Of a DNA stretch of 64,000 nucleotides, positions 4,883-52,396 are shown one piece after another. The translations under genes were made by a program, and so were the position numbers. The notes below the pieces were generated by a model. It was given only the letters and a program-made list of their open reading frames with translations, ran no database searches and had not been told where the DNA came from. This DNA comes from Ligula intestinalis (Eukaryota; Platyhelminthes; Cestoda; Diphyllobothriidea; Diphyllobothriidae), in contig JAYGXS010000004.1 in NCBI GenBank assembly GCA_036362985.1, forward strand, positions 40,381,923 through 40,445,922. Reading direction: 5' to 3'. Every line of letters begins with the position of its first letter. Within the stretch, counting starts at the first letter, position 1.

Positions 4883-5047
4883 TCCTGTAGATAACTCCCC
4901 ATAAGTACGACTGAAATCCACCGTCAGTTTAAGCACGTTGGTAGGCGCAATGATAATCTGTTGAAACACTAGGCCATGCCGCTCAAAAGAAATTCGCAAA
5001 GGCTTGTGTGGAAATTTTATGCAGAATAAAATACAAAGAAGAAAGGT
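4883..5047 (-). CDS. Candidate exon, possible ML-like middle exon
   Basis: On the minus strand a strong acceptor (TTTTGTTTTTCCGACAG) precedes a 165-base fully open segment ending at GGA|GTAAGG, a good donor. It encodes exactly 55 codons, phase 0 at both ends. The second half reads APTNVLKLTVDFSRTYGELS, resembling the beta-strand pattern of the exon at 30736-30851 (DPTNITAYIPFKPN). The start differs from that exon, which begins with two leftover bases. Family assignment is inference; the splice borders and open frame are seen directly. No first or last exon was found next to it. Confidence 0.35.
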
Positions 5048-5503
5048 CTGTCGGAAAAACAAAAGTGTACTCGTCAATTTCCACTTTAGTGGCCTCAAAC
5101 CCTCGTCAAACGAAATAACCAGATTTGCATGAATTGGCACGACAGGCAGACGCCGACAGAAAATCAGTGTGGGAAGGAGGGGCGTGTTGGGGTTTGAAGG
5201 AGAGAAGGAGAAATGCTACGCCTCTCTGTTTAGAAAGGAGAGGGGAGAGTGACTTTATCCTCGAAATAAATATTATATTGGTTCCGAATAATTTCACTTT
5301 TTTCGAAATTTATTTACCTGAAATGCTGATATTTCAAAATATACGTATGTGATTAGTACTTAAACTGCATTACCTAATGATTTGAACTGATCGATGAACT
5401 GTTACCATAATATCACAGAATGCCTATTGACTTTCAAACATAAGGACATAGACCTAAAACGAATAGAAGCAAAGGTTCGCAGCCCAGGTAGTTGTCCAGA
5501 AGC

Positions 5504-5585
5504 AGTCATTACGTTCACCGGAATCGTAATTTTATTCATCTGAGCTCGGATGAACAAAATTATGATTCCGGTGAACGTAATGACT
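5504..5585. repeat. 37-bp-arm hairpin (inverted repeat)
   Basis: The left arm at 5504-5540 (AGTCATTACGTTCACCGGAA...) and the right arm at 5549-5585 (...CCGGTGAACGTAATGACT) are reverse complements with two mismatches, around an 8-base spacer TGAGCTCG. The near-perfect pairing in otherwise unremarkable DNA suggests a recent foldback insertion or a structured element. No terminal duplication is evident. Confidence 0.8.
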
Positions 5586-5589
5586 TCTT

Positions 5590-6180
5590 ATAGGTCTAAC
5601 ATATTAAAATAGCTAAAAAGAGAGGCTTGTTTATATCCTTAGACACACTGAGTGCCACTCGGGACTTCAAGAAAAATATCCGAAGGAAAGTGTAGGCACA
5701 AAGTCATTAGAAGTTTAAGCAAAGCAGGATGTGATTAGTACGCGTATGTCGGTAAAAGGCAAGTAAGTTGCATTGGAAGTCCCGATATGTAGAGAGGGAG
5801 TATTTTCTGCAGTGTTCGCTGTAGGCGAATTTATGCAGGTACTCAAGAGACGTTCTGGGAAGTGTATTTCATGCATGCATATATTTATGTACTGTGTCCA
5901 ACATCAACACTGTACATATACTTTTTAGTAGTTGGTACAGTGACGTTTGCGTCAACCTTACTCAAATGATATTTCTCATTCTCTGTCTTTTTAATGTTTC
6001 TTTGTTTGTTTGATTTGCCCAATGTTATCTGTTCTGTCTGCTTAATCAACGCCAGCTCTTTTATCTAGTCTCGGTAATTTCCTCATGTGTAGCTTCACTG
6101 GCAAACCTTGACGCTTCTGGCCACTATTCAAGCACTGATAAGAGCAATGAGCTAACACTGATTTAAGGTGGTACACTGTT
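5590..6180. other. Unassigned AT-rich sequence
   Basis: No open frame, RNA gene or repeat is recognised in this interval. Confidence 0.4.
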
Positions 6181-6319
6181 AAAACTCGCTGAGGATCTTG
6201 TATTTGATTCAAAGGCTTCTCAAACTGTATGTTCTAACTATAGGTAGCTGGGCTTCTGACAGGGGCAGCAAAATAAGGGACAAATGCAAGACAATGCAAG
6301 GTCAGGTAGCACCGTCGAG

Positions 6320-6435
6320 CCTTAGCGATATCTTTCAATTCGTGGGCAGCGTGAAGATCAGGGTCCTGGTTTTAATAGACGCCTTGTCTCGTTCCACGAA
6401 AATGCCGTTCACAGATGCAGTCAATTATAATGAAC
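6320..6435 (+). pseudogene. PLE RT scrap (motif A region)
   Basis: The frame reads SDIFQFVGSVKIRVLVLIDA followed by LSRSTKMPFTDAVNYN. This aligns by eye with the PLE stretch 'DtFeFV...i.......SfDVvSLFTnVP..e.i.Yi', including the aspartate after VLI, while the usual 'SLFT' is degenerate (LSRSTK). About 35 codons survive without the rest of the RT, so this is an isolated remnant. Confidence 0.5.
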
Positions 6436-6559
6436 CGATCGGTGGAACGTCAACCTACTCTAAATGTGAAAGTTTTTTGTTTTCTGTAAGTCAAAGATAA
6501 AAGTGGCCTCACAAAAAACCATATCCTAACGCAACGTATTGATCCGAGTCTTAGCAGCC

Positions 6560-7990
6560 TGTAGTTGCTAGCACATGTCCGAAACACATTTTTATGTATA
6601 TTTGAGATCCATATAGGCTTCGTATTGTGTGGCAAGAAGCTTGCACTGAAAGAGCTCAGCAAAGTACACAGAGGTGCTTTGTCAATTCTACGCCGTACCG
6701 TTCCAAAAGCCCTGCAGGTTTTATATCCGGAACAGGCGATTTCATTTAGTTCAATCTCAGACGTCCTTGTAGCTCAAAAGCTTGTATGAAGACAACTGAG
6801 TAAATTGTGGGGATCTAATCCACCAGATATCAGTGGTTACATTTGCCTCTCCTTTAAACACCGACTGAAAAAACCGGCATTGATATTCAATTTGCAAACT
6901 TCGACAGCGTCATCATTTTGTACAAAGAGATGGCGTTCCTATTTCGAGTGTATTGCTAAATATTTTTGTAGAAGAAAATGTCCAAGAACGTAAGTCCACC
7001 CTCCACTTCTTCGTTATCTATTCTGAACCGTAAAACGAGCAAAATCTAGCTTAATTACCCTTTTTTAATGGTTGGTTGTGTCCTAGCCGATAAAAGAAAA
7101 AGCATTGCACCTATAACGTGCCAAAACATAGGTTCTTATTCGTCGAGAAAAGAATCTCTTAAATTTATATACGGCGATGAACCCAGAGCTTAGGGAGCGT
7201 ATTATAGTACCCTTGATTTTCCTATATATGACCACCTTAAGTTTACAGAACTTCTTGAGGCACAACTCCATGAGTTCTATAGAATCCGGAGGTATGTGCT
7301 AATTTTCTTTTCCATCACATATCTGACATTTATGGGCACCTATTTTTTGGACAACATAGGCATGCGTTATGGACATAAAAAGTGAGATAACACTAACTGG
7401 CACAATCAACTCGTTTGGCTCGACTCTGACCATCTTATTTATTATTTACTATTCAGGGATCTGGCTGCATTTCAAATAAATCGCGTTTTCATTAATAAGA
7501 GTTATTGAAAATATCATGATGAGGATATATTTAAATGCAATTGAACTGCTTTGGCAGATATCAATTACTGAATTTGAAGAACTAAAATATACAGTAAACG
7601 TAATGGTAGGTTGCTTGAAAATACTTAAATATTAAAACAATGGAGAAAATATGAGAACCTTTAAATCTTTGTAAACGAGTAAACTCAAATGATTAATTTA
7701 ACGAAAGCTTGCTCCTTAATAAGCTTGGGAAATATTTTGGCACTTGTATTCTTGCCTTGAAAAGTGGGTCTTACGCACACTTTAGCTTCAGAATCCATCA
7801 GAAAAAATAGCCTTTCAAATGTGGCGCTTATCAAGGAGCCTTGTGTTCCGGTATAGTTTAAAAAATGGTTTGAGCATCATCCACCAGTATTCCCAATCGA
7901 AAGCTGCACAGCATCAATTCCGTGGCTCAGTTGCTCAGAGCCCCGGAATTCTAAACACGTAGTCACGGTCTCCAGACTGGGCTTGTTTAT
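6560..7990. other. Unassigned AT-rich sequence
   Basis: Open frames of 60-75 codons occur at 6565-6789 and 6805-6993 (+) and 7083-7271 (-). None shows a family motif, signal peptide or convincing splice borders, so they are not called as genes. Confidence 0.4.
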
Positions 7991-8020
7991 CAATTTACCG
8001 ACCTGCTAATGAACGATTTG

Positions 8021-9490: not shown

Positions 9491-9584
9491 CACACATCTT
9501 CTTAAAAGTTAAGATAACAACAACTCATCATAACATCGAAATAAAAATTTATAGTGGCCAAACTGCAGTCCATACAGATTCAGG

Positions 9585-11129: not shown

Positions 11130-11236
11130 AAGCCGATAGAACGTGACATCATGAAAGGAAATTTGAATAACATCATTCTCGCTTATGCTGGTTAGCCTGT
11201 ACACGGAATATGTCCAGTCAACGGCAAAAAAGTATG
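11130..11236 (-). CDS. Candidate ML-like middle exon
   Basis: An acceptor-like CAACCATAG precedes two leftover bases and 35 open codons, ending at CTT|GTATCG in phase 0. These are the same start and end phases as the exons at 30736-30851 and 22231-22325. The encoded end, SENDVIQISFHDVTFYRL, has the alternating hydrophobic pattern and aromatic of the ML strand 'V.V.F....'. The paired cysteines of the 30.8-kb exon are absent. The acceptor tract is mediocre and the surrounding minus-strand frame is open for 91 codons (11001-11276), so borders are uncertain. Confidence 0.25.
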
Positions 11237-12202: not shown

Positions 12203-12315
12203 CTAAAATATAATACATAATTTGTGTCAGAGGCCATGGGCAAAACGTGCCAACCAACCTAAACATGATGTCTAAGTTCCTCACATATTTCCATGGTTAA
12301 TATTAAAAGTCAGTA

Positions 12316-14155: not shown

Positions 14156-14169
14156 AACTTACTTCTTAG

Positions 14170-14353: not shown

Positions 14354-14517
14354 TTATGCGGTAGGCGTTTCAACCCCGAAGTCGACCACATGATGAAGAT
14401 CCTCAATGTTTTCGGATTGGCAAGTAAAAATACCGTACCGTTCTCCGTTGATATCTCCCCTGTAAACATCAACCGTCACTGTGACTGTGCCAGCGTTGTT
14501 GTCGAAAATGACGTGTT
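14354..14517 (-). CDS. Candidate terminal exon, ML-like C-terminus
   Basis: On the minus strand an excellent acceptor (TTTTTTTGTTCTTCTTCAG) opens two leftover bases plus 53 codons and a TAA. The encoded core AGTVTVTVDVYRGDI then GERYGIFTCQSENI fits the last two strands of an ML domain ('i.l.v.w.l.d.....lfCw.i'), as in NPC2. The two-base start phase matches the last exons at 29685-29851, 42713-42816 and 52194-52396, and the length (164 bases) is close to that of the 29.7-kb exon (167 bases). An Ig-like F-strand reading (YGIFTC) was considered. The upstream exon may be 14953-15044. Confidence 0.45.
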
Positions 14518-14952
14518 CTGAAGAAGAACAAAAAAATATAAGGAATTCGTTAATACCTTTATTTGGGGGAAAACTTTTCTGTAGTTAGCGCAAAAAAACT
14601 TACTACAAGGCGCCAAGTCCTGATGGCCGATCCCACAGATAGTTCGATATTTTGTATAAACCTTGAACTATAACGAAACAGACGCATTAGATTAGACAGT
14701 TGCTCCTCAGAGAGCATCAGTATAAGTCGCATCTACTAATAATGACTTTGGTGACGGTCTTGAATCTTAGATGCAGTGCGTTTCATCCATGATTCTTCGT
14801 TTTCGAAAGTTCCTGCCTTTCTAGAAAGACAGCATGTCCGAACAACCTAATATTACTTTTAATATTTGCAGAATATTGTAATTTTTCTTACGTTTTCCTA
14901 TATTTGTTTAACGGTTTGGACTATTAACTTTTGCCGTTTTGCAAGTGTTGAG

Positions 14953-15179: not shown

Positions 15180-16120
15180 TAATGAGAAGTGAAGGAAGAT
15201 TAATAAAATTGGAAGATTTTATCGGATGATCGTCTTTAGAGATTGTGAACAATCGTGATTGCTACAAGAGCTTTCACACCTGACAAGACCGTTGAAAGAG
15301 CCTTTTTTGTATTTTGCTGTTCGGAAAGCTAGACACCTCCTGTTTACGCGCATCGAAGTCTCAAGCACGAAGTGAAAGTGTCAAATTCCCTGTAGCTTGT
15401 TTATGTACACTTATATTGATGCCAATGGTACTAACAATTAACAAATGATCGGATTCAATTTTGCAGCAACGTTCAGGCAGTTAATCGATATTAATTGATA
15501 ACCGACGTAAATATTTGAGTTTTATCGTATAAATGCCTAAAATAAACAAGGAAATATGCGAACACTGGGCCTTTGTAGCTAAGCAGTGGAGCCGTAACTG
15601 TGCTCTTTGTTTCGAAAGCGCCCATAAAAGCATCATTTACATATTTTACGAAAATATACCTTAACGTGTTCACCCTCCTTTGTGTGTAGAAAAGCGCATC
15701 TGATTGAAAAGGTTGAGCAATTTTTTGCATCATGAACAAACGGCTGAGAGAGCTTGAGTAGGAAAAGACCTGAAGAAAAAGTATGGAAAAGATAAGCCTA
15801 TAAGTAGAAAGTGTAATTTACCATAAGCAATAAGCGTCCATATATATTGAATAAAAAATTCACCCAACATAGCAATTTCTGGCAGCGGTGCGCACTTAAT
15901 ACTTGATTTTAATTAAAAGATACCTGCAAGTTTCCTAGCGCGTAAATTAACAACCATTTATATAAGGAAAAATAGAAAGAATAACGTAATGGTTTTAATA
16001 AGATCACTGTCTGTACCAAAATATGATTGAAAGCAGTAAATGAAACGATAGAATATTTACGCACGTTTTGAGCCGAGACGTTTATAACCGTCCAGAAAAA
16101 AATATGCGACCGTTGGACCA
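15180..16120. other. Mostly unassigned; weak open frame 15491-15739 (-)
   Basis: The minus frame at 15491-15739 encodes YVNDAFMGAFETKSTVTAPL among other residues, without a recognised family or firm splice sites. The rest is AT-rich and unremarkable. Confidence 0.3.
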
Positions 16121-16123
16121 ATA

Positions 16124-16742: not shown

Positions 16743-16763
16743 TTTCCTTCCAGTGTTTGCATT

Positions 16764-16793
16764 TTCTTCTTCTTCTTCTTCTTCTTCTTCTTT
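16764..16793 (+). repeat. (TTC)n microsatellite
   Basis: About nine uninterrupted TTC units just outside the right arm of the palindrome. Confidence 0.9.
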
Positions 16794-17811: not shown

Positions 17812-17985
17812 ACCAAGGAGTGCTGTGCATAGTGTATCTCCTTGCTGAAGTAGACTTAGTTTCGTCAAAAAAACAGTTTGCTTTCTCTCAGTGAATCTAC
17901 TGAGTTGACTTCCACGCGCCAAAACGAAGATCCAATAACTAATTGGGAATAGGAAAAATAGAAGCGTGCTCTTAAGATAAGACAT
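17812..17985 (-). CDS. Candidate first exon encoding a signal peptide
   Basis: Minus-strand ATG at 17985 opens MSYLKSTLLFFLFPISYWIF, a basic start and long hydrophobic core typical of a signal peptide, then VLARGSQLSRFTERKQ. An AT-rich TTTAAATAAAAT lies about 45 bases upstream of the ATG, TATA-like. Donor candidates are CTTG|GTCTGA (phase 1) or GAG|GTAGAAG; a TAG follows closely otherwise. It may be the first exon of the minus-strand gene whose later exons are at 15.04 and 14.35 kb, with the palindrome in the intron; this link is inference. Confidence 0.35.
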
Positions 17986-22230: not shown

Positions 22231-22325
22231 CTTTGGCTTGAAATCCATAAAGGCGTTGAAGTGGCCGGCGGTAGAGTTGCGCTGGTAGGTTCCGTTGTAA
22301 ACAAGACCAAGATGAGACCAAGATT
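22231..22325 (-). CDS. Candidate ML-like middle exon
   Basis: On the minus strand TTTGGTATTGTAG precedes two leftover bases and 31 codons ending at CCAAAG|GTAGAT in phase 0, the same phases as the exon at 30736-30851. It encodes SWSHLGLVYNGTYQRNST then AGHFNAFMDFKPK; the FKPK end parallels FKPN at 30.8 kb, and two N-glycosylation sequons (NGT, NST) suit a secreted protein. The cysteine pair is absent. The segment is markedly GC-richer than its flanks. A possible next exon near 22160 (pyrimidine-rich acceptor, ERTCQPLFRHLENSL) has an incompatible phase, so the copy may be a pseudogene. Confidence 0.4.
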
Positions 22326-28600: not shown

Positions 28601-28635
28601 TGAATTGAAGCAAGTGCACTTTGTCTTACAGAGGG

Positions 28636-28740
28636 GTAAGTTTAGAACGTCGCGCAACTGATATCCACATCGTAGCTGGAGGGTTTCGGGCAGTGCACGA
28701 ATGGCGCGGAGAATTCCGGTGAAAAGAGGACTAGAAATAT
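28636..28740 (-). CDS. Candidate exon of unknown frame
   Basis: A GC-richer minus-strand segment lies between CATATTTCTAG and CCCTCT|GTAAGA, a good acceptor-donor pair. Frame 2 gives PLFTGILRAIRALPETLQ and LRCGYQLRDVLNLPL, and remains open to the donor; another frame gives FSAPFVHCPKPSSYDVD before a stop. Downstream of the ML-like gene on the same strand, it could belong to a neighbouring gene. No family recognised. Confidence 0.3.
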
Positions 28741-29684: not shown

Positions 29685-29851
29685 TTAGTTGAACAAATTT
29701 AGCAACGTACACTGCGGCAAAGATGTCAACATTTTTCTATAAATAATATAGATTTTTGGACTATCGGCATCCATGTTGGAGAAGCGAATTGCTTGAATGT
29801 CCCTTTTACTGACGTTGAAGATTTCGAATTTGAAGATGTTTGATCCCGGAA
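29685..29851 (-). CDS. ML-like secreted protein gene, last exon
   Basis: Acceptor CCTGTCGTTTTTTAG opens two bases plus 54 codons and a stop. Two bases complete the single base left by the exon at 30559-30643, restoring a valine. It encodes PGSNIFKFEIFNVSKRDIQ then AIRFSNMDADSPKIY, corresponding by pattern to the last strands of an ML domain ('psikl.vew.l.d......cw.i'). Joined exons give 38+28+1+54 = 121 residues, the size of an ML core. An N-glycosylation sequon (NVS) is present. First exon and signal peptide were not located and may lie beyond the PLE at 31.4-33.5 kb. Confidence 0.5.
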
Positions 29852-30558: not shown

Positions 30559-30643
30559 CATTAGTGAGTTTACATTCAAGCAGCTCATCGGCACATTTGC
30601 ATTTGCCTTCGTTGAAAGTGTAAATATCTCCAATTATGACTTC
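30559..30643 (-). CDS. ML-like secreted protein gene, third-quarter exon
   Basis: Acceptor CCTTATTTCAG and donor AATG|GTACGT flank 85 bases, phase 0 in, phase 1 out, matching both neighbours. It encodes EVIIGDIYTFNEGKCKCADE then LLECKLTN. In ML/NPC2 proteins the corresponding region is 'v.g.......p....C......C.l.kg.ty', so the cysteines fall where expected. The exon's strict splice signals in AT-rich DNA are the strongest evidence for a real gene here. Confidence 0.55.
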
Positions 30644-30735: not shown

Positions 30736-30851
30736 CTTGACTTGCACAAGACTAACATTGGGCTTAAATGGAATATATGCTGTTATGTTCGTTGGGTCTT
30801 GCAAAAAGGAGAAATTGCAGTCGTATGTCTTGCACAACGGATCCCAAAGAG
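30736..30851 (-). CDS. ML-like secreted protein gene, middle exon
   Basis: Acceptor TTTGCACCTCTGTCTACAG and donor GTCAAG|GTAAAA bound 116 bases: two leftover bases then 38 codons, ending in phase 0. It encodes LWDPLCKTYDCNFSFLQDPT then NITAYIPFKPNVSLVQVK. The order C-4x-C followed by alternating hydrophobics and F-x-P-N parallels the NPC2 segment 'pC....C.l..g....v.v.F.sn'. NFS, NIT and NVS are N-glycosylation sequons. ML proteins bind sterols or other lipids in the extracellular space or lysosome; ligand here is unknown. A search with the joined 121 residues would decide the family. Confidence 0.55.
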
Positions 30852-31750: not shown

Positions 31751-33480
31751 TTATGGAGGATAATGGGCCAATTGATTACGGCTGGCGTCTAGATGTAATT
31801 GTTTGCAAAAGTGTAAGACCCTGTACGCTGGCGCCAATTCGACACATCTGTTGACTGAATTGTAATACGTGGACCAGGCTTCGATAAATTCTCTGCTCGT
31901 CTTGTTTCCCGCGTGTATGAGTACCTTGACGGTAGCGAAGTTGAATTCATGGCCTGTTTCGTAGGTGTGAGTTGTAACTTGTGAAGATTCGTCATCTATT
32001 TGCACGGCCTGCTTGTGTTCACGTATACGCGATCCGAGCATGCATTCCGTTTGACCTGTATAATTAGAGGGACCGTTTAGGCATGGTATGCGATAAACTA
32101 CACCAGATCGTTCATTCTGCGTAAGCCGGTATTTTATTTTCATCACTCTGCTGCGCATTTTAGCTTTGGGTCTGTGTGCAATTCCAACACCTAGTCCCGC
32201 AGCGATGCGCTCCGTCGCTTCTGAGATGTCTTTTATGTATGACAGAGCATGCCATATCTTCGGTGGTTCTTCTGTTTGGGTCCCCCGGGGCCGAACGCGT
32301 AGGCATTGGTTTATAAATGCTTATGGATAACCGTTCCGCATGAACTGGTCGCGGATATATCTGGCCTCACATGCCTTTTTCTCTGGTTTACTGCAGTGGG
32401 TCTGGATCTGTTTGAAGAGTGTTTTTACACAGCTCGGTTTGTGAACAACTGGATGGTTACTGTGAAAACTTAGGAGTTTTGTTGTGTTCATCGCCTTCCT
32501 GTAAACCGTCGTCTCAAATTCACCGTTGGGTGTTTTCTTGACGAGGACATCAAGGAAAGGCAGCTGCTGCTCTTTTTTTCCGTGTAAATTGTATGTCAGG
32601 AAATATTCCATTCAGCAAATCATGGAAGTTTTGCAGTCTATTTCTCTTGATAATGACAAACGCGTCGTCAACGTAGTGGTGCCAGAATACAGGTTTCTGT
32701 TGAGCAAAGGCGATGTTCTGACACTAAGCCGGAGTTCGGGGAGCCCATTGGAGTTCCTTTGATCTGTTCGTACGTTTCTCCAGCAAAGGTAAAGTAAGTT
32801 TTCTGGCAGAAATCGAATAACCTCATGAGGTGTTAAATTTTTAGTGGGCTTTGGGCCTCATCATATGCCTCTCCCGTCTTTTCTGTAAGATATTGTGTGC
32901 CAGTTTTGGCAATATGAATGTGAACAATGAAGTCACATCGAAAGAGACCATGATTTCGTCCGATTGAATCGTCCGACCTCGGAGGTCCTCGATGAATCGA
33001 GAGGCTGATAAAACTGAGGTAATCCAGTTGCCTTGGAGGAATTTGAGTTTTCTTTACATCTAATTTGCCAAGTTAGAGGCTGGGCTGCTTTTAAGGGCAA
33101 CGATTGGCCGAAGTGGGACATTCAGTTTGTAGATTTTTTGGAAGTCCATAAAATCGCGCCAGAGCTGTATTCGTTACTTTCATTTTGCACCACTCATTCA
33201 TAGTGATCACATTCTTTGCGGGTATCTCTGAGAAGTTGAGTCAATCGGTTGGATAATGATTTGGCTTGCGAATTTGGTGTAGGTTGGTAAAATGCTCTGG
33301 CATCAAGAAGAGTCTTAGCTATGTCGTTATAATCGTGCCGGTTTATCACGACAGTCGACCGTTTGCGGGTCTGCTGAGCGAAAGACCTCTATTTGGATAT
33401 TATTTCACTTGCAGTACTCCATTCTTCTACAGGCAGGGGAAAATTTACGGTACTTGCCAGCCAATGCGTTCTTTGATGGT
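31751..33480 (-). pseudogene. PLE RT and GIY-YIG, frame-shifted
   Basis: In order on the minus strand: FMDFQKIYKLNVPLRPIVAL ('GLPK.hK...PLRPIVs'), MVSFDVTSLFTFI near 32950 (motif A), KTYFTFAGETYEQIKGTPMG near 32790, HYVDDAFVIIKRNRL near 32680 (catalytic YVDD intact), QQLPFLDVLVKKTPNG, HSNHPVVHKPSCVKTLF, then RSGVVYRIPCLNGPSNYTGQ and TECMLGSRIREHK (GIY-YIG, here VVY...YTG). At least three frame shifts and several stops interrupt it. Coding identity to the other PLEs in the window is low, so it is a separate family. Confidence 0.8.
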
Positions 33481-34393: not shown

Positions 34394-37300
34394 ATGAATC
34401 ACAACTATACGCAACATACGATCTCTGCTACGGCGTCTGCGGGAACCGACGCGCCCCATCCTCTTGGCATCGCGGGACGGGTGTTAAATCTGCGAGCTGA
34501 TGCCGGATTGCGAATTGCAGGCTGGAATGTTCAAACTTTGAGGGATGACGGCGCCCAGCTGTTAACAGCCAAATCCCTTTCTGAATAGCGTGTTGGTGTG
34601 GCGTGTCTCTCTGAGGTCCGCCTACCTGGCACTGGCCACAAACTGCTGCAAGTTCCAGAAACTGACTCTGCGTACCATCTCTACCACAGTGGTGTGTCCG
34701 ACAACTCTGGACTGTATGGTGTCGCTATAGCTTTGGCCGATGAATTTCACTCGAGTCTGCTAGAGTGGGAGGCTGTCTCACCGCGGATCGCTTGGGTCCG
34801 TTTGAAAAGTGCCCCAGTCAACGTTTCCATCATCTCGGTATATGCGCCTACTCTGGCTGCTGATGACAGCATAAAAGATGACTTCTACGGTGACCTCCAG
34901 CGAACAGTTGACCGCATCGCAAGAAGCGATCTACTCGTCATTGCCGGTGACTGGAACGCCCGACCAGGTGTGTGTGACGCTGGAACCCGTCATGTGGTAG
35001 GCAAATTTGCTGTCGGAGCGCAGTGTGCCAACGGTGAGCGCCTTGTCAACTTCGCATCGTCTAACCGCCTCGTTGTGTCAAGCACCCGTTTTGATCATCC
35101 ACACCACCACCTTGTCACTTGGTACTCAAATGACGGGCATACCCAGGCCCAAATAGATCACATCCTTGTCCGAGCACGCTGGGCCAGCTCGGTCTTGGAT
35201 TGTCGAGCCTACCGCGGTGCTGATACAGGAAACGCTCATGCATCGGACCATGTCCTACAGCGGGCAACCCTTCGCTTGCGTTTGAGAGCTATTCACAGAC
35301 CCTCCCGACCACAGCGGATCGATGTTGCAAAGCTGAAGTCCTCTGCTGGCAACGCCTTCCACTTAGCACTCCAGAACCGTTTCGACGGCCTGTACCCTGA
35401 CGCCCGAGCGGACCCAGAGCCCGCGGGGCAGTCCCTGAAGGCCGCGATGTCAGAGCTGGCATACACCCATCTGGGCAAAACCCGACGGCGACATCGCAAC
35501 TGGATCACTAGACCCACGCTTGAGTTAGCTGAGGAGGCCGGCCGAGCCAGACTCACTGGCTCCCCCACTTACAGAGAGCTGTGGCGCCAAACGACAAGGG
35601 CCATCCGAGCCGATAGGAACGCCTACTGGAGCGACTTTGCCACGGAAACGGAGCGAGCAGCTACCAGAGGTGACACCCACAAGCTCTACCGACTCTTAAA
35701 GCAGGCCAGCAGAGGTTCGGGGAACACCACCGAGACTTTACTGGATCGCAACGGTGCTGTAATCACTAAGATCGATGACCGGTTAGAGAGATGGCGCGAG
35801 CATTTCTGTGACCACCTTAACCATGATCCCCCTGTGATGTCTGACCTGTCGCCCAATGCGGACGATCCCCACCATCTGTATGAGTGCAACACAGAGCCAC
35901 CCAGTGTAGAGGAAGTTGTCTCCATTCTCTTGAGGCTACGCAACAACAAGGCACCTGGTGAGGATGACCTCCCGCCGGAGCTCTTTAAATGTGCACCCGA
36001 GGTTATTGGGCCCTGGCTACAACAAATATTTGCCAAGATATGGGACAGCGAAATTGTGCCCTCTGACTGGAGAAAAGCAGTGATCCTCCCCTTGTTTAAA
36101 AAAGGCGACAGACGAGCGTGCAGAAATTACAGAGGCATTAGCCTTATCGATGTAGCGGCGAAAACATTCACGTCTCTTCTTCTCAAACGTTTCCAAACTG
36201 CGAGAGACCAGCGCACCCGCCCAAACCAGAGTGGATTTCGACCAGGTCGTGGCTGCACCGACCAGATCTTCAATCTCCGCCGTGTACTGGAACTGAGATG
36301 GGGTCACCAACAACCCACTGTTCTATGCTTCATCGACTTTGCTGCCGCATTTGACTCTGTTGATCGCAGTTCGCTATGGAACATAATGAGGATGGACGGC
36401 CTACCACCTAAGCTTCTCAATCTCATGCAGGCATACTATCGTGGCACTTCCACACGGGTGAGGACGCAGCACGGTGACACGGAAGCCTTTAGCGTCAGGA
36501 CGGGCGTCCGCCAAGGTTGTGCCCTTTCACCAACCCTGTTCAACTATGCGGTGGACTGGATCATGACCAAAGCACTGGATGACTTCCCGGGAGTGCAGTT
36601 TGATCGCTCGAAATGGGTGACTGACTTGGCGTATGCTGATGACGTCGTCCTCTTTGGCGACAACAGTAATGCAGTTCAGCAGGCGTTGGACAAGGTTAAT
36701 GAGCGTGCCCGATCCATCGCATTACGCCTAAACGCGACTAAGACCCAAGTCATGCTCTCCTGTATGCCCCCTACATCTGTCACTCCTATTGTTCTCGACG
36801 GCGTTCCTCTCGAAAAGGTCGACTCGTTTAGATACTTAGGCGCTTTGGTCACGGAAACGGGTCAAGGTGTCGACGAGGTTGTATCACGCGTCAACCGTGC
36901 CCGATCTGCCTTCTACCGACTGTGCGCTCCTCTATGGAATAGAAGGGAAATATCACTACGCACAAAGTCCCGTGTTTACCAAGCAGTGGTTCGATCTATC
37001 CTGCTCTATGGCGGAGAGTCATGGCCTATGCGTGTTGAGGACATGAGGCGCCTTGAGGTGTTTGACAATGACTGCCTACGCCGCATCCTTCGTCACCGAC
37101 GCGTCGACCGAATTCGCTGCTCCGATCTCCGCCGATGCTGTCACCTGGACGCTCTCCCTCCACTCCTGCTTCAGAGATGACTTCGGTGGTTTGGGCATGC
37201 GTCCCGGCGTGATGATGGTGAGCTGATTCGTGACCTGCTTGTGGCGACGCCTCCCCCCACCTGGCGCAAACGTCGCGGCGGGCAGCTGAAAACTTGGACA

Positions 37301-39099: not shown

Positions 39100-41810
39100 A
39101 AGGTGGGTTCCGTATGTAATAGGTGACCATTCACAAACGAGTGCTACATACATTATATCTAAGGAAAGTCACAAATTTTTCTTTTAGGAAAAGTTGGAAT
39201 AGTTCGAAGAAACTGTTTAATGCTGCATTTCATGTTGTTTACACTATGGTCCAAATTACTTGATAAAAGCGTAAGCTGTATTATGTAAGACAATTTGGCG
39301 TTCTCCAAGAATATTCTCATTAAGAATTTTTTTCAATCAGATATACTGTTTTGCAAGTACATCATATAGCTTGAATCTAGTTTCTACAGCAAATGTATAC
39401 TTGGGATGATATTTTTGTACACACTTACTATCAAGTACATAAGAATTTCCAGGGAATTCTGAACTCCGTGAAATAATTGTTTGCTACTTATTTCGAAACA
39501 TCTGATGGAGTATGCTTCGTATTGCCGCTAAGAAGGTTGATTTAAAAACCGAAGTACTGATGTGACTGAAATATCTGGTATTAGGTTTTAAAATGATCTA
39601 TATTTCAATCCTAGTTATGTTGTCTTTTCTAATCGAAATTGAGTTAATGGCGCCAAACCGACAGTTTGCCAAAATTTTTCTCCTAACAATAGATCACTGA
39701 GCATGTTTGTTCGTATTTTTCACCGAAGTTAAAGTGACCAAAAGCTTGGCGTTTGGTTTTTACAATTCAGATGCAAAATTTTTGATTTCATAAATAAGAA
39801 CTTTTTTAACAAAATTGGATGACTCACTTTAACAAAAGTCAACCATCTTTGTTTATATCTTTTAGCTGTCTCCCTGCACAACAATTGTTGTCACCGTTCT
39901 GTAGCGCTTGCTTGGGGCTTGAAATCTTGTTGCAGCAAAGGATACCGTCAACACCGTACCCGTTATGTCATGCAAAACGTTTTCTATAGATATAAATGCA
40001 ATCAAGGTTGGGTATATAATAGCAAATCAATACACTTAATTAACAAAAAGCCCTTATTTTACATGCTACATTTTACTATTGATCCTTGACCTATTTCGTA
40101 TGCCTGACGCTCATTCAATGTAAATGAAACCTTAATCAAATTCGGACAAGAGAAAGACGTACACTTTCATGTAGTGATGCGATTTTATCGACCCATATTA
40201 ATGAAAACAAAAAGCTTACTTTGTAAAACTTTGTGTTATTTACAGCTCATTACCAATCTTTTAACGAACATGCAAAACCTTTCCAAGCAAATAGTTTGGG
40301 TAATTAAATAACAGTGACGAGTCCAAACCCCCAAAGCTGTTCCATGCAACAGCAAAAAAAAAGTTAAAGACGCGCCTGCTTTCTAACCTCGTACCCATGC
40401 TGCCTATATGGCGTTTCTCATAACCGCATTAAACACAACCAGCTGCCTGCTCAGAGTAAAACGAATGTAACACTGTCACCTTACTGTGGCAGATGTCATT
40501 TGGCCTGCATTTTCGGGCCAACTGTTGGTGAAAGCCTCAAATAATTGCCACAGGCAAATTCATTTCTTAGGATCTTAAAAAACTGCTATCAAGTCATTTT
40601 TAACTTTTCATCTTAAGCAGTATTCCAATAGACCTTGAACGCATTTTATAATCGCGAGCAAAATGTTTTAAGCTGGTCATAAACAGCATCACCACAAAAA
40701 GGCATCGACTAGAAAAAGAGGCTTTTCATGGGTATGGACAGTCAGCTCGTTAGCATGGATGTGGCAGTACTCTGCATAGACTCAGGCAACCTTTTTATTT
40801 TGATAAGTCAATTTGTAACATATAATCACACTAGAGGATTGTTGTGGCATAAGGGCTCACCTTTACTTTCTTATTCAAAAAAGTGGCTGGGAAACCAAAC
40901 TCTGAATTAACGCTTTTTCAATTTAGTTGCGGACAGATCACAAATGGTGCAGAGGCCTGGCAGAAAATGTGATCTACAACATAAGGAGGAACATGAATGT
41001 AGTTTCTTGGAAAAATGGCATGAGAAAACCTATTATGGAATAAGATTAAATCATTGGTTTCACGCAAAATAAACGGAGTAGTGGCCGACGATGAATATGC
41101 ATGCCATTTGGTCAATAACATATTTAGCTCACAAACTGAGCATAAAACAGGCAGTACGTCTGCACAGTCGTTTTATATTTTTTATGTTTTATCAGTAAAA
41201 CATTTTGATGTCCTTTGTTATACGATCTGGACAAAATCAAAATTGTCTAGTGTTGGATATCTATTGGTACGGTAAGCGGCATTACGGAAATGCAAGCGAG
41301 AAAAACAAGCCATCTGCGCAGTTTTCATCTAGTGGTGGATATTAAATAGCCACCGAGGCAATGCTTTTCGTTCACTTATCTCAAAAAGCATACTTCACAA
41401 GGCCTTTGTGCTTTTTACATTTTTATATATTTACTTATTTGACTGTAAGCATTTGCTTTTTGAATGCATTTGCCTGAATATATTAACTTTATATCTTTGA
41501 TATATAGAAATCTTCAAGCAGGTTATTCACAAATACTGTCCCCTCCTAATAAGTTAGTTTGCCTAGTCGTCAGTTGGTGAACTGTAGTTTGATTGTTACG
41601 AAATCCTGCCTAGACAGTCATATTACCTAATCAGAATTGGTGGATTCCATATGTGTGATTAACTTCATGGTTCCAGTAAGCTTCGTAGCTTGGCTAGCAG
41701 GCGTTGACTGTCCTCGGTTTCAACTTACGCCGAGGTCGCAAATTGTGTACAATTAAATCAGTTGAGTTATCCAAATGGGCTCTACCCTCGTCATAATTAC
41801 ACGTGCTTTA
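39100..41810. other. Unassigned AT-rich sequence
   Basis: No gene, RNA or mobile element is supported. Open frames at 40728-40910 and 41054-41275 (+) have no motifs or splice context. Confidence 0.45.
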
Positions 41811-41819: not shown

Positions 41820-42107
41820 CTACGTAAATGCTAGCTGTCTAAGAGTAAACATCCTCTCTGCTATTTCCAAGCTACACTTAGAGATTATTATTTGAAAACG
41901 GAATTCCTGCAATAAATAAAAGACATTTAATTCACCCGGGTTTGACTCGCCTGCACATCTGTCAGAAAGTGGCAGAGCTCGTAAAGCTAGGGGGTAAATA
42001 CCTTTCAAATCAGCCGATAAAATAACTTTGTCAAAATAAGACGTCACAATGCTGTCGAGTTCAAAACGCCAGGAGGCCCAGCTCGTGTACATTTCATGGA
42101 AACAAAA
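41820..42107 (-). CDS. Candidate ML-like single-exon frame
   Basis: A 96-codon minus-strand frame reads SWRFELDSIVTSYFDKVILS then ADLKGIYPLALRALPLSDRC, AGESNPGELN and EFRFQIIISKCSLEI. Its order resembles a whole ML core: strand with aromatic, 'V....G.......P....C', and a final strand pair with a cysteine. It could instead be spliced: GTGAATT...TTTATTGCAG inside it would be a 29-base intron, but the joined frame soon stops. A further GT (AAAG|GTATTT) lies after ADLK. No signal peptide is seen. Confidence 0.3.
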   Translation of the reverse strand, partial: FCFHEMYTSWASWRFELDSIVTSYFDKVILSADLKGIYPLALRALPLSDRCAGESNPGELNVFYLLQEFRFQIIISKCSLEIAERMFTLRQLAFT

Positions 42108-42712
42108 CAATTTTAGACCCCTTGAAGGGTACTTAAATTGCGTCCATAACTTCAGTGTAATTGAGTGATGTAATACATTTTTTGAGCTAATATATTAGTA
42201 GAAAGAATTCTTCTTTACCTTTGATCACCCGGTCTAAATAGTTTCCTTTTCCAGATTAGCTGTTGTCTTTCTTCACATAAATATATTCGTCTTCAATCAT
42301 TTCTTGCTTTAAAGAAATAAGATTAAATTATGATTACAAAGATAAAAATAATAATTCACTTCTTCTCCTTAGACTCTTGGCTTGAAATTCCTGTCAAAAT
42401 GCATTCTTTATATTGAAGTCCCGAATACATGAACTTTTGTGGTTATTTTATCATGAGTTAAAACTGAAGGTCAAAAATCAAATACAAGCGAGAAGTGGGA
42501 TTAAGAGGTGCTTAGCTCTTTCATTTGCCAATACATTTTTCACTCAACTGCACATTATCAAACAGATGATTGACGCATTAACATGTTGGTTTCAAAATTT
42601 GGCTTCCATCATAGATCCTTCTTTTTTGAACATATTTTTTTCAGTCATACAAAGAAACAACAAAAAGCCTTCGCAAAAAGATGTTTCATTATATCATTGC
42701 ATGGATTGAAAG

Positions 42713-42816
42713 TTATGAATGGTGCACGTGTTCAAGTGCAACTTCATGAGGTATTGACGAAGAAGACTTACATAATTGTCAAAATCTGCATACATGGTGA
42801 GCGTCTGCGACTGTAA
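42713..42816 (+). CDS. Candidate ML-like terminal exon
   Basis: After CATTGCATGGATTGAAAG, two leftover bases and 33 codons run to TAA at 42814. It encodes MNGARVQVQLHEVLTKKT then YIIVKICIHGERLRL. The alternating 'R.V.V.L......yiiv.iCi' pattern and the two-base start phase match the last exons at 29.7, 14.4 and 52.2 kb. The acceptor has a weak pyrimidine tract. An alternative donor CATG|GTGAGC would make it internal. No upstream exons were found on this strand. Confidence 0.35.
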
Positions 42817-42819
42817 TAT

Positions 42820-43700
42820 GCTCAAGCACATTGAAGTTTAGTCATAAAGCTACCAGTTGAAATGTGACTTATATAACTTAGATTTCCTAGGGAAAAGACT
42901 GTAAACATCGCCATCAAATAAATGATAAATGTATTTAGTCAAACGTTATGCTGATTTAATGTGTGCAGCCAAATGCATACCGATTGCAGCTGTAGCAGCA
43001 CCTATAAAGGTAAATATGGAAAAGTTTATGAATAAATTAATAAATTTCACTACCGGTGAAATCAGATATAAAAAGCAGATAGATATGTTTTACAATTATG
43101 CAGAAATGTTGGTTTAATTAATGCTAAGTAAACTATACTTGACGGATGGAGGAGAAACAGATTGACGAATAGAGGCAAAGGAGCGCGTATTCTGTTAATA
43201 GCTGTTAATCGCTTCAAAGCTGCAAGTTAAATTGTCGTACTTTCCTCCAAACACTCCAGATATTTATAAAAGTACGAGTTTCAGTTTTTTATTAGCAAAG
43301 CTTTGGCTAAAACAAGCATGACTAAAAAATATTTGTATTATTTCTCAAAGATGCATGATAATTTAAGGTAACGAAAACCTAATGGACTGTGTAAGTGGTA
43401 ATGAAAGCTGAAAACTTTACTACAAAGTGGCTTAATACAAATTGATTTTTACGGTAGTGAACATGCACTACAGACTTATGATTTTGGAACTGATGTCTGA
43501 AATCCCTATTCTCATGAAGCTTGGATTGCAAAACTAGGGGAAACTGACAACACAACATGATAAACTATGGTTAGGTGGTTTCTTCTCATACCATATAAAT
43601 AACAGCGTTACATAAAAAAATAATTTCTGCAGGTATAATTAGTTGTTTAAAAATCACGCTGTTCATTGTTCACTGAATAAAAGTTCAGTTTGAGATCCAG
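42820..43700. other. AT-rich; possible 41-base micro-exon at 42970-43010 (+)
   Basis: GATTTAATGTGTGCAG and AAAG|GTAAAT flank 41 bases encoding KCIPIAAVAAPIK after two leftover bases. This is a good splice pair, but too little sequence to identify. The rest is featureless. Confidence 0.25.
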
Positions 43701-43809: not shown

Positions 43810-45655
43810 TCTCCATACAAATAAATATTATATATAACGTCCAGAATATGTATAGTCAATTAATCATCTGTTCACAAATAAGTAAAGACTAACATTTATT
43901 CATTGCTCTAAATTAAACGTGTTTTTCGCGTCTGCGGAACTTTGGTATCGCTAAGAAATGCTATTTTTCTTATAGAACAAAAAGTCCTTTTTATGTTTTT
44001 TGTGCGACAAATTCACCTTAAGTTTTAATTATTATTTTCGAAGCTTTCGTGCATGCGTTTATCCCCATTTGTGAGTGAGTCAATCTTTCGCGAATTTGGC
44101 ATTTTGCGTGAAATGCTGACCGCCAACTCGGAAACGACCTATGCAGTGGATAGAACCGTAGGCAGCAAATGCGCGTAGTTATAACGAATGCACCAGTTGT
44201 CAACCAAAAACTTCCAGGATAGAAGTCAACCCTTAATATTAACTGACTGAAATGCCAATGTTGGTATTGATAGAGTCAACCTAGTACCTTTTGGTTAAAA
44301 AGGAGCTCTAAATTTTCGAATGCTTGTTATGCGCGAATTGTCATCTGAATTCTATCTGAGCCATCTGAGCAACGTGGATATCGCTTTGAAGATAAGCCAC
44401 ACCCTCGTTTATGCCAGTTGATAATTTTCTAGACAACTCATAAAAGTTTGCGACGGAAAAGGGCCATGGTGTACATTTTGTAAACAAAAATAATAATATA
44501 TGGCTCTATACGATGTTTAATGAAACAGCATATTGTATTCGTAGAAAACTCCCTAATTGTAAAAATATTAAAACATAATGTTCACTTTCTCCAATGACTA
44601 CATTTGAAAAAATATACGTTGCTAGAACATATGTCCAAAAAGGACAGGTTTGTCAACATTTTCCGGAAAATATGTAAGGATGCATAAAAGCTTCAAAAAT
44701 CAAGCTACCGGACATTGTTACGTTTGCTAATTAACATACCCTGCTACATAGATATCTGCACGTTGATCGAATTATGTTGGTAGCAGAATTATTACACAGA
44801 AACATTGGGGGAGCAGGTTAATATCTTTTAGTCAGCCTACTTGAGACAAATGCTAGAACCAGTGTGAAAATAAAAATTAATTTCCTCTGAATTAAAATGC
44901 TTCAGCTAAAATTAAGCTTTTGCTTTTCACGTAATGCGGAATCAAACTCAGCGTGACAGGTCCTCAACTAATTCTCCTTCCTTGAGGCATGCGCAGATGC
45001 TTATCGCCTGCTCTTAGTCGCTTGCTTCAAACAAATTATCTTCAACCACATTTTTTTAAAAGATTACAAGAAATGCAACTCTGAAAATTAAATTTAACCG
45101 GATTCTTCTTTCACAGTTTATAAAAAACTGGGTGTTTCTGAGGAAATACGGGTAGAAGTGACAAAATACAACTTTGTACATTGTGTCATATAAAACTATC
45201 CTATGAATGCTCTCAGGTTCTGATACTTTTTGGCCTACTACCAATACTGCGTATTAGAAAAGGCAACAGATGCATTACTTCCTTTTCTTTCGAGCTGTTA
45301 GGTCACATGATATGCTAACTTCAAAAGCGGTTCAACATTGAGAACTGTCAGATGTTTTAAATTGTAAAACAAAATGATTGATCAGCGGAAGGGAGGTTTT
45401 AACGGCACATTGTTTTTTCCAGCCAGTGCCAGGTCATATATTGTAAAAAGTAAACCATTTCGTTTGTTCTTGGAAAAATATAGTCGCAATTTGCCATTTA
45501 CTAAAAATATTTAATGGCACACGGCAGCTAAAGACAGTTTGTTCTTTCCGATAATGCAAAACAGAGTTGTCCAGTTTTTCCTTTATAAGATAAATTTAGC
45601 ATATCAAGGAATGGCATAGTCAAGCAAATTAGATACCGCATTGGTCAATGCTATC
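43810..45655. other. Unassigned AT-rich sequence
   Basis: No supported feature. Confidence 0.45.
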
Positions 45656-45659
45656 TAAC

Positions 45660-45745
45660 TGTGTCTATGATGACGAATCCACGACGGATATCGAGGCATC
45701 AGGCGAATAAAAGTGTTTTCCTAGTGATCGAGTCGTCTTCTTCTT
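45660..45745 (+). repeat. Hammerhead-core-like repeat (copy 2, degenerate)
   Basis: TATGATGACGAATCCACGAC then GGATATCGAGGCATCAGGCG and TAGTGATCGAGTCGTCTTCT match copy 1. The core has changes at both conserved blocks (ATGATGA for CTGATGA and GAGG for GAAA), so it should be inactive. It defines a dispersed repeat of at least 85 bases. Confidence 0.5.
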
Positions 45746-45759
45746 AAATCAGATACCCT

Positions 45760-47480
45760 TGCGTGCAAACGTCATGGTGTTTATTATAAAGCTATCTAGA
45801 TTAGTACAACCTCCAGTGTTCTCAACTAATTCTCGATATTTCTATACAACTGTACTCAGTACGTGTCTTTCTGTTTAACGCCCAAAGACATAAGATATTT
45901 TCCAGTCATTATGTTCAGTCAAACGCCATTGGAATTCAGTTGGTCATTTGTCCATGATTCCCATGATTTACTTAATTAATCTTTGAAGGCTTATCCCAAC
46001 GTCAGCCTTCTGATACAACTTTTTGGAAAACAAAATATGTACATTGGTTCAAAATCATGAGATCCAATTCATTTGTACCGTGGATTATAATTAAGCTGAA
46101 TAATTTACCCTTTTACACTTCAATTAATTATTTTAAGACAATTATCTGACTGCTCCAGCACAAAAGTTCTACGTCGACATATATTTCTGTCAATTCAGTT
46201 TATATTTCAGTTACTAAGGAGGGATTCTATGATACAATTTCTCTCATAATCATCATCAAAGGCGTACAATCTTTATCAAAGTGGGCGTGCGTTATTGGTC
46301 AGAAATCCGAGACAGCCATAGTAGTACTCGGCGAGTGATCAGCCGGAAACATCACACAGCCTAGGAAAGGGTTTATGCTATTGAAAGCAGACGTCTAACT
46401 AGCGTTTCAGAGGCACAATTGTACCCATAATAACGACTGAAAATTTAGTCTAAATTAAACCCTAGTCACCCTGGTCGCCCTAACAGATCTTGCAAAAGGG
46501 GCTGACTACTGTAAAGTGGGATAAAGGGAAAAGAGAACTTAAGCACGGGTCAACTTGCAAAATGCAAAAGACGTTTACAGAAGCAGTCTCTTACCTAATT
46601 AATCTACTCGCCAAATGTACAGCTAAGACGACATATGTCAGCGAAAACGTGGGAGGGATTATAAGTTTAACCAGAACGAAGCAGTATGGGTAAGAACATC
46701 AGAGTGGTTTGCGAGGAGATGTCGATAAAGTCACTGTAGGGTGCATAGGGCCCTCTGAGTACGCTCAGATCGTTCGGGACTTGGACTCCTAACAGACTCC
46801 GTAAAAGGTAGTTTCAGGTAACTTGGTTGTTGCATGTGATCTCTTGTTGGGATTATGAAGGACTTCCAAATCCTGATCAGAGGTATTGTCCAATTTGCTT
46901 GCTTACAACTACTAGAGCTTAGAAACAGAGCTTAGCTTTGTATCACTTTCGCAAAAGATTTTTACAAAATTCCAAGCCAAACGTGTTCTATGCTTTATAC
47001 CCACAATATTGGAAACTGATTCGACTGCAGGATCATGACATTTTTAGGCTCCAAAATTCCGCTTTAAGTGTAGATTGAATTTTAAACGCAGATCAGAGGT
47101 ACCCACCTTGACCCCAAACATACCAAAGCAAGCAATAGACGAGAACCTTGGCGCATTCTTGCGACCAGAAAATTTCAGCTTTTCATCTCTAAATTATGCT
47201 AACTATCAGATGTACGTTTATCCCACTGCGATACGGATTTGCTGGACTACTTACTATTATTAACTAGTTACTATTATACGAATTAAAAATGTTTAAGCCT
47301 GACTACGAAAATAAAATTCCTAGCAAAATTAGTAGAACTGACCCTTACGACAATGCATCTAAGTCATCATTACTAACTGATTATGGGTAAACTGTGTTCA
47401 CTTTTATGTACACCGAAGTGCGTAAAGTGAATGCGATTTTCTACACAAGTAAGGCAGCCTATAATGGCAATATTGTGCGT
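45760..47480. other. Unassigned; GC-richer patch at about 46250-46900
   Basis: No motif was found in any frame of the patch, including the plus frame 46490-46693. Probably old repeat sequence. Confidence 0.35.
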
Positions 47481-47482
47481 TT

Positions 47483-47672: not shown

Positions 47673-47719
47673 CTGTAAGATTGATTTATGCAGTAGATCG
47701 AGGGCATCATTAAAATTAT

Positions 47720-50700: not shown

Positions 50701-50840
50701 TTAATTCATTGTTCGAATTAATAGCGATATTGTACGTCTTGGAAACTTGGAATTTATTGGAATTTCAATATTTTTTTTTAGAAACTCCTAGTACTTCATA
50801 TAGTTCTTTTAAGTACTAAATATGCCCAGTGATGTTCAAT
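47720..50840. other. Unassigned; GC-richer patch at about 48300-49400
   Basis: No family recognised in any frame, including minus 48567-48770 and plus 49582-49809. The GC-richer patch is probably old repeat DNA. Confidence 0.4.
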
Positions 50841-50850
50841 ATTATAAGTT

Positions 50851-50858
50851 TTTATAAA
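50851..50858 (+). promoter_or_regulatory. Candidate TATA box
   Basis: TTATAAAA lies about 50 bases before the ATG at 50905, leaving room for a start site near 50880 and a short leader. Confidence 0.35.
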
Positions 50859-50904
50859 AAAATTCACACTGGTCTTCGAGTAAGGATCAAACTTTTACAC
50901 AGTT

Positions 50905-51063
50905 ATGAAAGTTGCGTGGTTTTTAGCAACTTCTGTAATTGTCCTATTTACTAATGGCAGTAAATTATATTGTAATGCAAGTTCACTAGATGGACGGTCC
51001 AATAGAGGGGAGCCGTGTTATTACTCATATTGGGTTGAGCATGATTTGCGTGTGAATATTTGG
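50905..51063 (+). CDS. Secreted protein gene, first exon (ML-like)
   Basis: ATG at 50905 opens MKVAWFLATSVIVLFTNGSK, a clear signal peptide with cleavage likely after the NGS region, then LYCNASSLDGRSNRGEPCYY and SYWVEHDLRVNIW to TGG|GTAAAG, a good phase-0 donor. The ML/NPC2 N-terminus has the same order: signal peptide, C, variable 'dG', 'pC', then 'l.V.I...'. Phase-0 exit equals the exit of the 30.8-kb middle exon. A TATA-like box sits upstream. The matching last exon may be 52194-52396; the linking exon between was not found with confidence. Confidence 0.5.
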
Positions 51064-51069
51064 GTAAAG

Positions 51070-52180
51070 TACACAGTGGGCTGTCTATAGTAGGCAATAA
51101 GGCTACATTAACCTTTTGCCTTTGGCCTCACTGCTTGGCGCTCACCACTTTCGGACTTCTGGAAAAATTTCCTTGTATATATCGGTCCAACCTTTGCAAT
51201 TGGAGCAGTCTAGTATTGTTTTTGTGCTTCATGGCAATGCTAATTTAACTACTGCTACTGATATTATCTTAAAATGCATTTTCCGTTGAGAAGCCAGATT
51301 ACCTGCCATGGCATGTGGTGTTTACGTCAACCACGGTAAGGAGGGGAATATATTTTAGTCGCTACGTTTAGCTTGTGATAGCTAGTCAAGACGGTTGTGC
51401 GACAATAAACTGTATTATTCCCTAGATATAACTCATCGCAGAAGGCATATGGGTCACATTGGGAAGGCGTGATTTAGCTTGGTCATCCTGTGATTGTTAT
51501 CCATGCCTTAAAGTCTTACCGTCGTCCTTTCGTATAAGTCTCCCAGACCTAACGCAAATATGGAAAGCGATTTCTGGGTTAGGTGCTGGTCTGAGCACGT
51601 CAGCTCTAAGCTTATATTAAATTATGTTGAAGACTGGTTCAAAATATATTGAGTTGAACAAACAAGCTTCATTTTATTCTTTTTATGCAACGGTTGCCCA
51701 GTGAACTGATTCAAAGTCATTTAACAACAATGAGTGCATTCTGTGAATCTCTAGTCCCTGTACCTATCTTAGGCCAGAAACTCAGAATACCTCCATTTTT
51801 GCAGAGTCTCTTCACATCTCTGCCCATTCTCCGCCTTTAGTAATAATGATTAATTAATGATCAAACAAACTAAAGTTAACGGTCCTTATTTTTCCTTTGC
51901 GCTCGGTTCTTAGACCGTTAGCACCATTCTGACTACATTGTCATTCGTTGTTATGTTTGTACAACTGGTCCACGCAATGCAGACCAAATTGAGGGAACGC
52001 ATTGCATTGAATAGTAAGCTCCCCGATATCATATACATTTTCATATTCAACGTAAACGAAATCTAAAACCTGTATCCAACTTTACAATAAAAAACTACTT
52101 TATTAGCTCAAATTTACGTTGAATTGGAGGGAATGTATGGCGCATAACGGCGGATATACATATGCATATGGTGAAATGTA
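51070..52180. other. Probable intron of the 50.9-kb gene
   Basis: Contains short candidate exons I cannot confirm: a segment ending CCACG|GTAAGG near 51340 with ITCHGMWCLRQP in one frame, and 36 bases after TAAGTCTCCCAG near 51550. Otherwise nothing. Confidence 0.25.
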
Positions 52181-52193
52181 GGTATTGTGCTAG

Positions 52194-52396
52194 GCTACTC
52201 AGAAATCCGTGTCCAATTAATTAATTATACAATAAAAGGGCAAAGTGTTTTGCATGATTATATTCCCAGTTACAACTTAAGGTTACCCTATGAGTTGAGA
52301 CCAATATACGTTTTGCTCTCCGGAAAGTTGTATCAGACGAATGTTTCCATACCACGCATTATATCAGAAGACGGGCGTTGGAATAAGCGTTCTTAA
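52194..52396 (+). CDS. Candidate terminal exon (ML-like C-terminus)
   Basis: TTGTGCTAG is followed by two leftover bases and 66 codons to TAA: YSEIRVQLINYTIKGQSVLH, DYIPSYNLRLPYELRP, then GKLYQTNVSIPRI. The start phase matches the other three ML-like last exons. IRVQLINYTIKGQS resembles FKFEIFNVSKRDIQ at 29.8 kb, including an N-glycosylation sequon at the same relative place (NYT, NVS). It is longer than those exons by about 12 codons. Confidence 0.4.

Follow-up and report, generated by a model that had tools for sequence, protein, structure and literature searches.

Probable remains of a duplicated gene family, present in two copies on one strand of a 64-kb stretch of the Ligula intestinalis genome

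We analyzed a stretch of 64,000 nucleotides from the cestode Ligula intestinalis (GenBank assembly GCA_036362985.1, contig JAYGXS010000004.1), hereafter called the window, which corresponds to C4:40381923-40445922. A sequence-only reading of this DNA had proposed a dispersed family of exons resembling those of ML (MD-2-related lipid-recognition) genes, sharing intron phases at up to ten places on both strands. All nine places that it listed carry AG/GT borders and open frames as drawn, and the idea of a duplicated, partly degenerate local gene family with common intron phases was borne out by paralogs, exon order, and in-frame stops. Our results indicate, with a probability of about 0.85, that two copies of one duplicated gene family, the fuller form of which lies elsewhere on C4 and on C1, have decayed on the minus strand of the window. 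That the remains of two such copies account for part of the listed exons is partly confirmed: every supported family member is on the minus strand rather than on both strands, and only four of the nine places (30736, 29685, 22231, and 14354) belong to the family.

The 644-Mb assembly was searched by tblastn with a 121-residue peptide joined from the exons at 30.7, 30.6, and 29.7 kb of the window. Three of the seven rows returned were the window itself, and the paralogs had E values from 4.5e-12 to 5.3e-6 (Table 1). Similarity between the window and the C4 and C1 copies is mostly exonic, the three copies have an identical exon order, and their donors and phases are concordant wherever they are comparable. 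From the C1 and C4 copies, a gene of about 12 exons can be drawn, composed of a signal-peptide-like exon, a 21-bp micro-exon (located in the C1 copy and in the window), a module B, the linker exons E6 and E0, and a module A. Both modules have the order E2-E3-E4-E5 and can be aligned with each other; they share one cysteine in E2, a pair in E3 (9 apart), and one in E5. The intron phases (in/out) are 1-0 for E2, 0-1 for E3, 1-1 for E4, 1-0 for E5, 0-1 for E6, and 1-1 for E0, and all of them link. Since E6 connects E5 of module B to E0, a single gene carrying both modules would be the simplest, albeit unproven, reading of the alignment and phases. The first exon is hydrophobic, as judged by eye, in the C1 and C4 copies, two copies have a linker exon in common (70.6% identity over 85 bp), and those exons that were read in the C4 copy (40.479-40.493 Mb) and the C1 copy (18.931-18.938 Mb) are open. 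Five pairwise comparisons over 118-169 codons, two of which are one copy pair with and without E0, gave ratios of nonsynonymous to synonymous change (dN/dS) of 0.24-0.37 by a simple Nei-Gojobori method with Jukes-Cantor correction, without confidence limits. When three of these comparisons were re-read in shifted frames, the excess of silent changes disappeared.

Copy I (43001-28630) retains 10 of the 12 exons, with E2B and E4B only partial. Its micro-exon has the 2+18+1 layout and the GTATGC donor of the C1 copy, and its E0 scored 63.2 bits with the corresponding profile against 6.6 bits for the best of 10 shuffles. The 5' part of E2B is decayed, and the remnant scored 8.2 bits against 5.9 for the best of 10 shuffles and, in a larger scan, 5.7 bits against nulls of up to 7.4; E3B was absent among the E3 matches of two short-profile scans. 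The E2B remnant on the minus strand overlaps the segment 42713-42816, which had been drawn as an open frame on the plus strand. In E2A, the paralog donors align at 30757, and the end drawn previously at 30736 is an alternative donor, likewise in phase 0. The segment 29685-29851 had been taken as a last exon, yet it contains a phase-1 donor common to three copies and is followed by a further exon at 28730-28630. E2A, E3A, and E4A are open, the in-frame stops being found in E3B, E5B, E0, and E5A. With these stops and with transposons in one of its introns, copy I is in all likelihood a pseudogene. Comparison of its module A with the other copies still gave dN/dS values of 0.24-0.28, which suggests a long period under selection.

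Table 1. Exons assigned to the family, their paralogs elsewhere in the genome, and transposons within copy I. Positions are those of the window unless C4 or C1 is given; phases are in/out.
Feature	Position	Strand	Evidence and remarks
Copy I, micro-exon	42981..43001	-	21 bp, phase 1-1; in a 76-bp block with 75% identity to C1 copy, E 2e-9
Copy I, E2B remnant	42772..42810	-	phase-0 end at GTAAGT; tblastn to C1 E2B E 0.027; position
Copy I, E3B	42219..42299	-	one in-frame stop; tblastn E 4e-5, 9e-7 with flank; position
Copy I, E4B (part)	41976..42071	-	tblastn E 6e-7; 26.6 bits vs 2.7 best of three nulls
Copy I, E5B	40861..40976	-	one in-frame stop, phase-0 donor retained; tblastn to C4 copy E 3e-8
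Copy I, linker E0	39828..39983	-	three in-frame stops, third in last codon; tblastn E 9e-14, 59% identity
Copy I, E2A	30757..30851	-	phase 1-0; E 1e-11 to C4 copy and 2e-11 to C1 copy, 63% identity
Copy I, E3A	30559..30643	-	phase 0-1; missing from the earlier list; 47% identity over 19 residues to C4 copy, E 5.6e-4
Copy I, E4A (internal)	29711..29851	-	phase 1-1, donor common to three copies; 59% identity, E 3e-15
Copy I, E5A	28630..28730	-	in-frame stop 28642-28644 ahead of phase-0 donor; 67% identity, E 1.3e-10
RTE-type element in E0-E2A intron	34589..37180	+	RVT_1 2.7e-36, Exo_endo_phos 9.5e-6
Penelope-like remains in E0-E2A intron	31751..33388	-	GIY-YIG E 0.0074 (below Pfam cut-off); frames match other Penelope-like frames of the window
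Copy II, E2	22231..22325	-	phase 1-0; tblastn to C4 copy E 0.001, 0/30 shuffled windows as good
Copy II, possible E4 remnant	17840..17938	-	stops, end uncertain, phase-1 acceptor; 17.7 bits alone, inside null range
Copy II, E5	15660..15769	-	phase 1-0, open; 10.1 bits vs 6.7 best of 10 shuffles; chain member
Copy II, linker E6	14604..14667	-	phase 0-1, open; position, phases, and few residues as in C1 copy; weak alone
Copy II, linker E0	14354..14517	-	two leading bases, may end in stop as drawn earlier; tblastn E 0.021; chain end
Paralogous exon	C4 40482280		57% identity, E 4.5e-12 (own-genome tblastn)
Paralogous exon	C4 40485537		64% identity (own-genome tblastn)
Paralogous exon	C1 18932431		43% identity (own-genome tblastn)
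Paralogous exon	C1 18934141		54% identity (own-genome tblastn)

Copy II (22325-14354) was supported when the region 1-28.6 kb was scanned, with splicing allowed, by a family profile. A chain at 17869-14375 scored 34.4 bits with one penalty setting and 41.0 bits with another, values reached by none of 60 shuffles (maximum, 24.5 bits), and the second match, 22320-22231, scored 26.6 bits (28.1 with a further segment). The plus strand of this region and both strands of 43.1-64 kb remained at the null level in the spliced family-profile scan. Two other outputs were discarded: the initial, lighter intron penalties, which gave spurious chains, and scores of 169-170 bits on both strands at C4-joined positions 64001-97000, where an N-rich stretch inflates splice scores. 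Between the exons at 22231 and 14354, E5 and E6 fit in order and phase; E5 scored 7.4 bits in a second scan against 4.5 for the best of three nulls, and the chain begins inside E6 once E5 is excluded. Taken singly, the exon at 22231 had only 1.3 bits with a short E2 profile. The segment 14354-14517 is likewise weak alone, as 6 of 30 shuffled windows gave a match at an E of ≤0.025, its E0 profile score was 6.9 bits against 6.6 for the best of 10 shuffles and fell below 5 bits or outside the top rows in a larger scan, and a second E0 match of equal E (0.021), probably due to chance, occurs at 52517-52606 on the plus strand. The two exons are convincing together because of the spliced chain, which exceeds all shuffles. 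Copy II is the more diverged of the two copies.

If all of the exon candidates were chance open stretches, borders and phases of the kind listed should be common in random sequence, and they are. The window contains 123 last-exon-like segments (two leading bases, splice score of ≥0) against 109-136 in five dinucleotide shuffles, and 20 middle-exon-like segments (two leading bases, phase-0 end, splice threshold) against 8-19. Without the splice threshold, the middle-exon-like segments number 1,422 against 917-1,033, and the nine phase classes are alike within the window (1,214-1,539 segments each). Because shuffled sequence yields about equal numbers under the splice threshold, phases and borders alone are weak evidence; the shared phases adduced by the sequence-only reading do exist, but it is homology that counts. 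Resemblance among the candidates inside the window was also at chance, both by phmmer against the six frames and by pairwise exon similarity: the best pair, 22231 and 30736, scored 32, and the three-exon sum was equalled by 8% of random groups. By codon log-odds, none of ten segments ranked above the top 9% of stop-free stretches; the underlying model, for which transposon frames served as training data, has poor discrimination. These window-only tests, together with a spliced ML scan described below, suggested chance and are misleading in hindsight. With paralogs outside the window at E values down to 4.5e-12, an exon order kept among the copies, and dN/dS values under 0.4, it is extremely improbable that chance explains every candidate; this explanation is refuted for 30736 and 29685 and unlikely for 22231 and 14354 jointly.

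Chance may well hold for the listed places at 4883, 11130, 50905, and 52194. A profile scan starting from the 29.7-30.85 kb protein, which had been suggested as a check, recovered 22231 and 14354 in compatible phases when same-genome paralogs were added, but gave no above-chance match at these four places, and the match at 42713 lay on the opposite strand. Neither tblastn nor the profile and spliced scans detected an above-chance family match at 4883-5047, 11130-11236, or 50905-51063. The segment 52194-52396, likewise without an above-chance family match, sits in a repeat (52088-52543 versus 45808-46229) that flanks an inserted Penelope-like element, and the repeat copy at about 46008-46133 has stops and indels in the frame of 52194-52396. 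An inverted duplicated repeat occupies 52088-55014 and 44810-46229; it is one whose 52-55 kb copy contains the Penelope-like insertion (about 52543-54204) and whose 45-kb copy is without it.

Several points weigh against two decayed copies of one family. Tests confined to the window gave nothing above chance; the signal-peptide-like first exon, itself judged by eye, was not located in the window; and E6 could not be located in copy I. In copy II, a convincing E3 was not found, the matches to E4 and E6 are weak, and that to E0, taken singly, borders on chance, while the family profile behind this copy was built from five sequences, including module A of copy I. The joining of modules B and A rests on phases and a linker exon, so that two tandem genes may be present instead, and the total copy number is drawn from one search with the 121-residue query.

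Fragments of a mobile element, rather than host genes, might also give such a pattern, as Penelope-like, RTE, and DDE elements abound in the window and the copies occur on two chromosomes. However, the 121-residue query found only three places in the whole genome at an E of ≤10, among the best candidates scored. The copies have a multi-exon structure, the introns in the window are mostly unlike those of the other copies, and the family proteins matched no mobile-element domain in domain-library searches. A mobile origin is accordingly improbable, and we retain the reading of two decayed copies of a host gene family.

The surrounding DNA contains Penelope-like elements in varied states at 12307-14164, 31751-33388, 52543-54204, and 62400-63981, with fragments near 0.7-1.9, 7.3-10.0, and 24.9-26.3 kb. 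The element at 12.3-14.2 kb has inverted terminal arms. A DDE_1-type transposase frame lies at 57111-58293 (E 3e-33), and a long inverted repeat with arms 78-96% complementary at 16098-16768. Neither tRNAs nor RNA families at the gathering threshold were found in the window, and a viral-contig scan of it gave two pattern matches, none of them confirmed.

We then considered whether the exons derive from a diverged cluster of ML (NPC2-like) genes, as proposed from the sequence alone. The joined 121-residue peptide scored 4.6 bits with an NPC2 profile, which was equalled by 1 in 1,000 random joined triples (817 reported), the cysteine spacing of the window copy appeared ML-like, and fluke ML gene clusters exist in which, according to an excerpt of PMC6979364, some members are hardly recognizable. 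Yet the 4.6-bit alignment falls partly in residues that are intronic by comparison with the paralogs, and the second cysteine of the C-x4-C motif in the window is a glycine in the paralogs. PF02221 was unmatched at an E of ≤10 (the filters drop most matches above 0.1) by eight window peptides, three aligned members, and two long paralog proteins, and hhalign gave probabilities of 0.2, 0.3, and 0.5% from shallow alignments. When the NPC2 profile was applied to five family sequences, three had no reported score, and the other two had -0.4 and 0.5 bits, values that 36 and 22, respectively, of 200 shuffles of the sequence concerned also attained. A spliced ML scan gave 18.9 bits at the candidate against 17.1-24.3 in 40 shuffles. 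The same scan recovered implanted NPC2 genes at 137-185 bits, with ideal splice sites that favor them, and an ant NPC2 carrying 40% random substitutions in eight of eight cases at 34-91 bits.

The gene structure points the same way. A canonical NPC2-type ML exon (phase 1-0) at C3:5424353-5424544 on the minus strand was the only PF02221 match reported in the genome at an E of ≤0.001 in an exon-by-exon search. This exon (C3 5.42 Mb) is unbroken across the C..C region and from before HGVIAG to TYPS, where the family would carry introns, so that the family departs from the ML intron layout as represented by this one canonical exon. The three disulfides of NPC2 (8-121, 23-28, and 74-80, as given in an excerpt of PMC6979364) likewise have a spacing that the cysteines of the family lack. 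With no PF02221 match, hhalign probabilities below 1%, and a different intron layout, the ML-like identity is not supported by the sequences, and we consider a diverged ML cluster unlikely. The accompanying remark, that no flatworm cluster of this kind was known to have been described, fails for true ML genes; NPC2-like clusters are known in Clonorchis sinensis (excerpt of PMC6979364). For the family found here, which is without a searchable name, the literature search covered ML genes and clustered secreted flatworm genes.

No convincing family match was found in Pfam, NCBIfam, or PDB. Module B of the C1 copy did match CD47 chains of PDB over 66 residues (E 0.003-0.047 and 0.001-0.013), but this resemblance was treated as chance because it covers a partial immunoglobulin domain, the first strands of which are missing, and is absent with the C4 copy. 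Among 5.8 billion proteins, the 121-residue peptide had two word candidates and no match at an E of ≤10, in a search restricted to lengths of about 67-212 residues; a 390-residue relative falls outside this range, so the result does not establish that public databases lack the family.

The fuller gene would run, in one frame, from the signal-peptide-like exon through the micro-exon, module B, and E6-E0 to module A. Its predicted product would have about 390 residues, would probably be secreted, and would contain two modules of about 135-150 residues each, homologous to one another and bearing cysteines. The copies may have arisen by duplication, in part locally on this stretch of C4 and in part from one to the other of C4 and C1. 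Copy I has gained stops and intronic transposons, and copy II is more diverged. If a role had to be guessed for the protein, an extracellular one would be the likeliest. We propose only tentatively that these secreted two-module proteins form a family that is restricted to its lineage and has not been described before, without a relative in Pfam, NCBIfam, or PDB and possibly with a new fold, under purifying selection at two genomic places and decaying in the window. If truly confined to its lineage, the family would provide candidates for secreted proteins that face the host or the environment. Its copies form a natural series, two being open in the exons read, one carrying stops, and one being a more diverged wreck. 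Thus, intron phases and exon order can reveal a family missed by the searched libraries, provided that the animal's own genome is searched.

In schistosomes, micro-exon genes combine short exons divisible by three with a signal-peptide exon, and the family described here resembles them. The likeness is one of layout; the family has a single micro-exon, and its other exons are mostly of about 60-165 bp. A second parallel is provided by the NPC2-like genes of C. sinensis, of which two isolates have 35 and 32, often sharing scaffolds, and three Korean proteins of this type have two domains (excerpt of PMC6979364). Those genes are also diverged and clustered and include two-domain members, whereas the family here has no detectable ML signal and differs in cysteine spacing and intron layout. 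Unlike the aphid bicycle genes, as described in an excerpt of PMC9168663, the family was found in only a few copies; as in that system, a fast-evolving family was recognized through its exon structure and not through its sequence.

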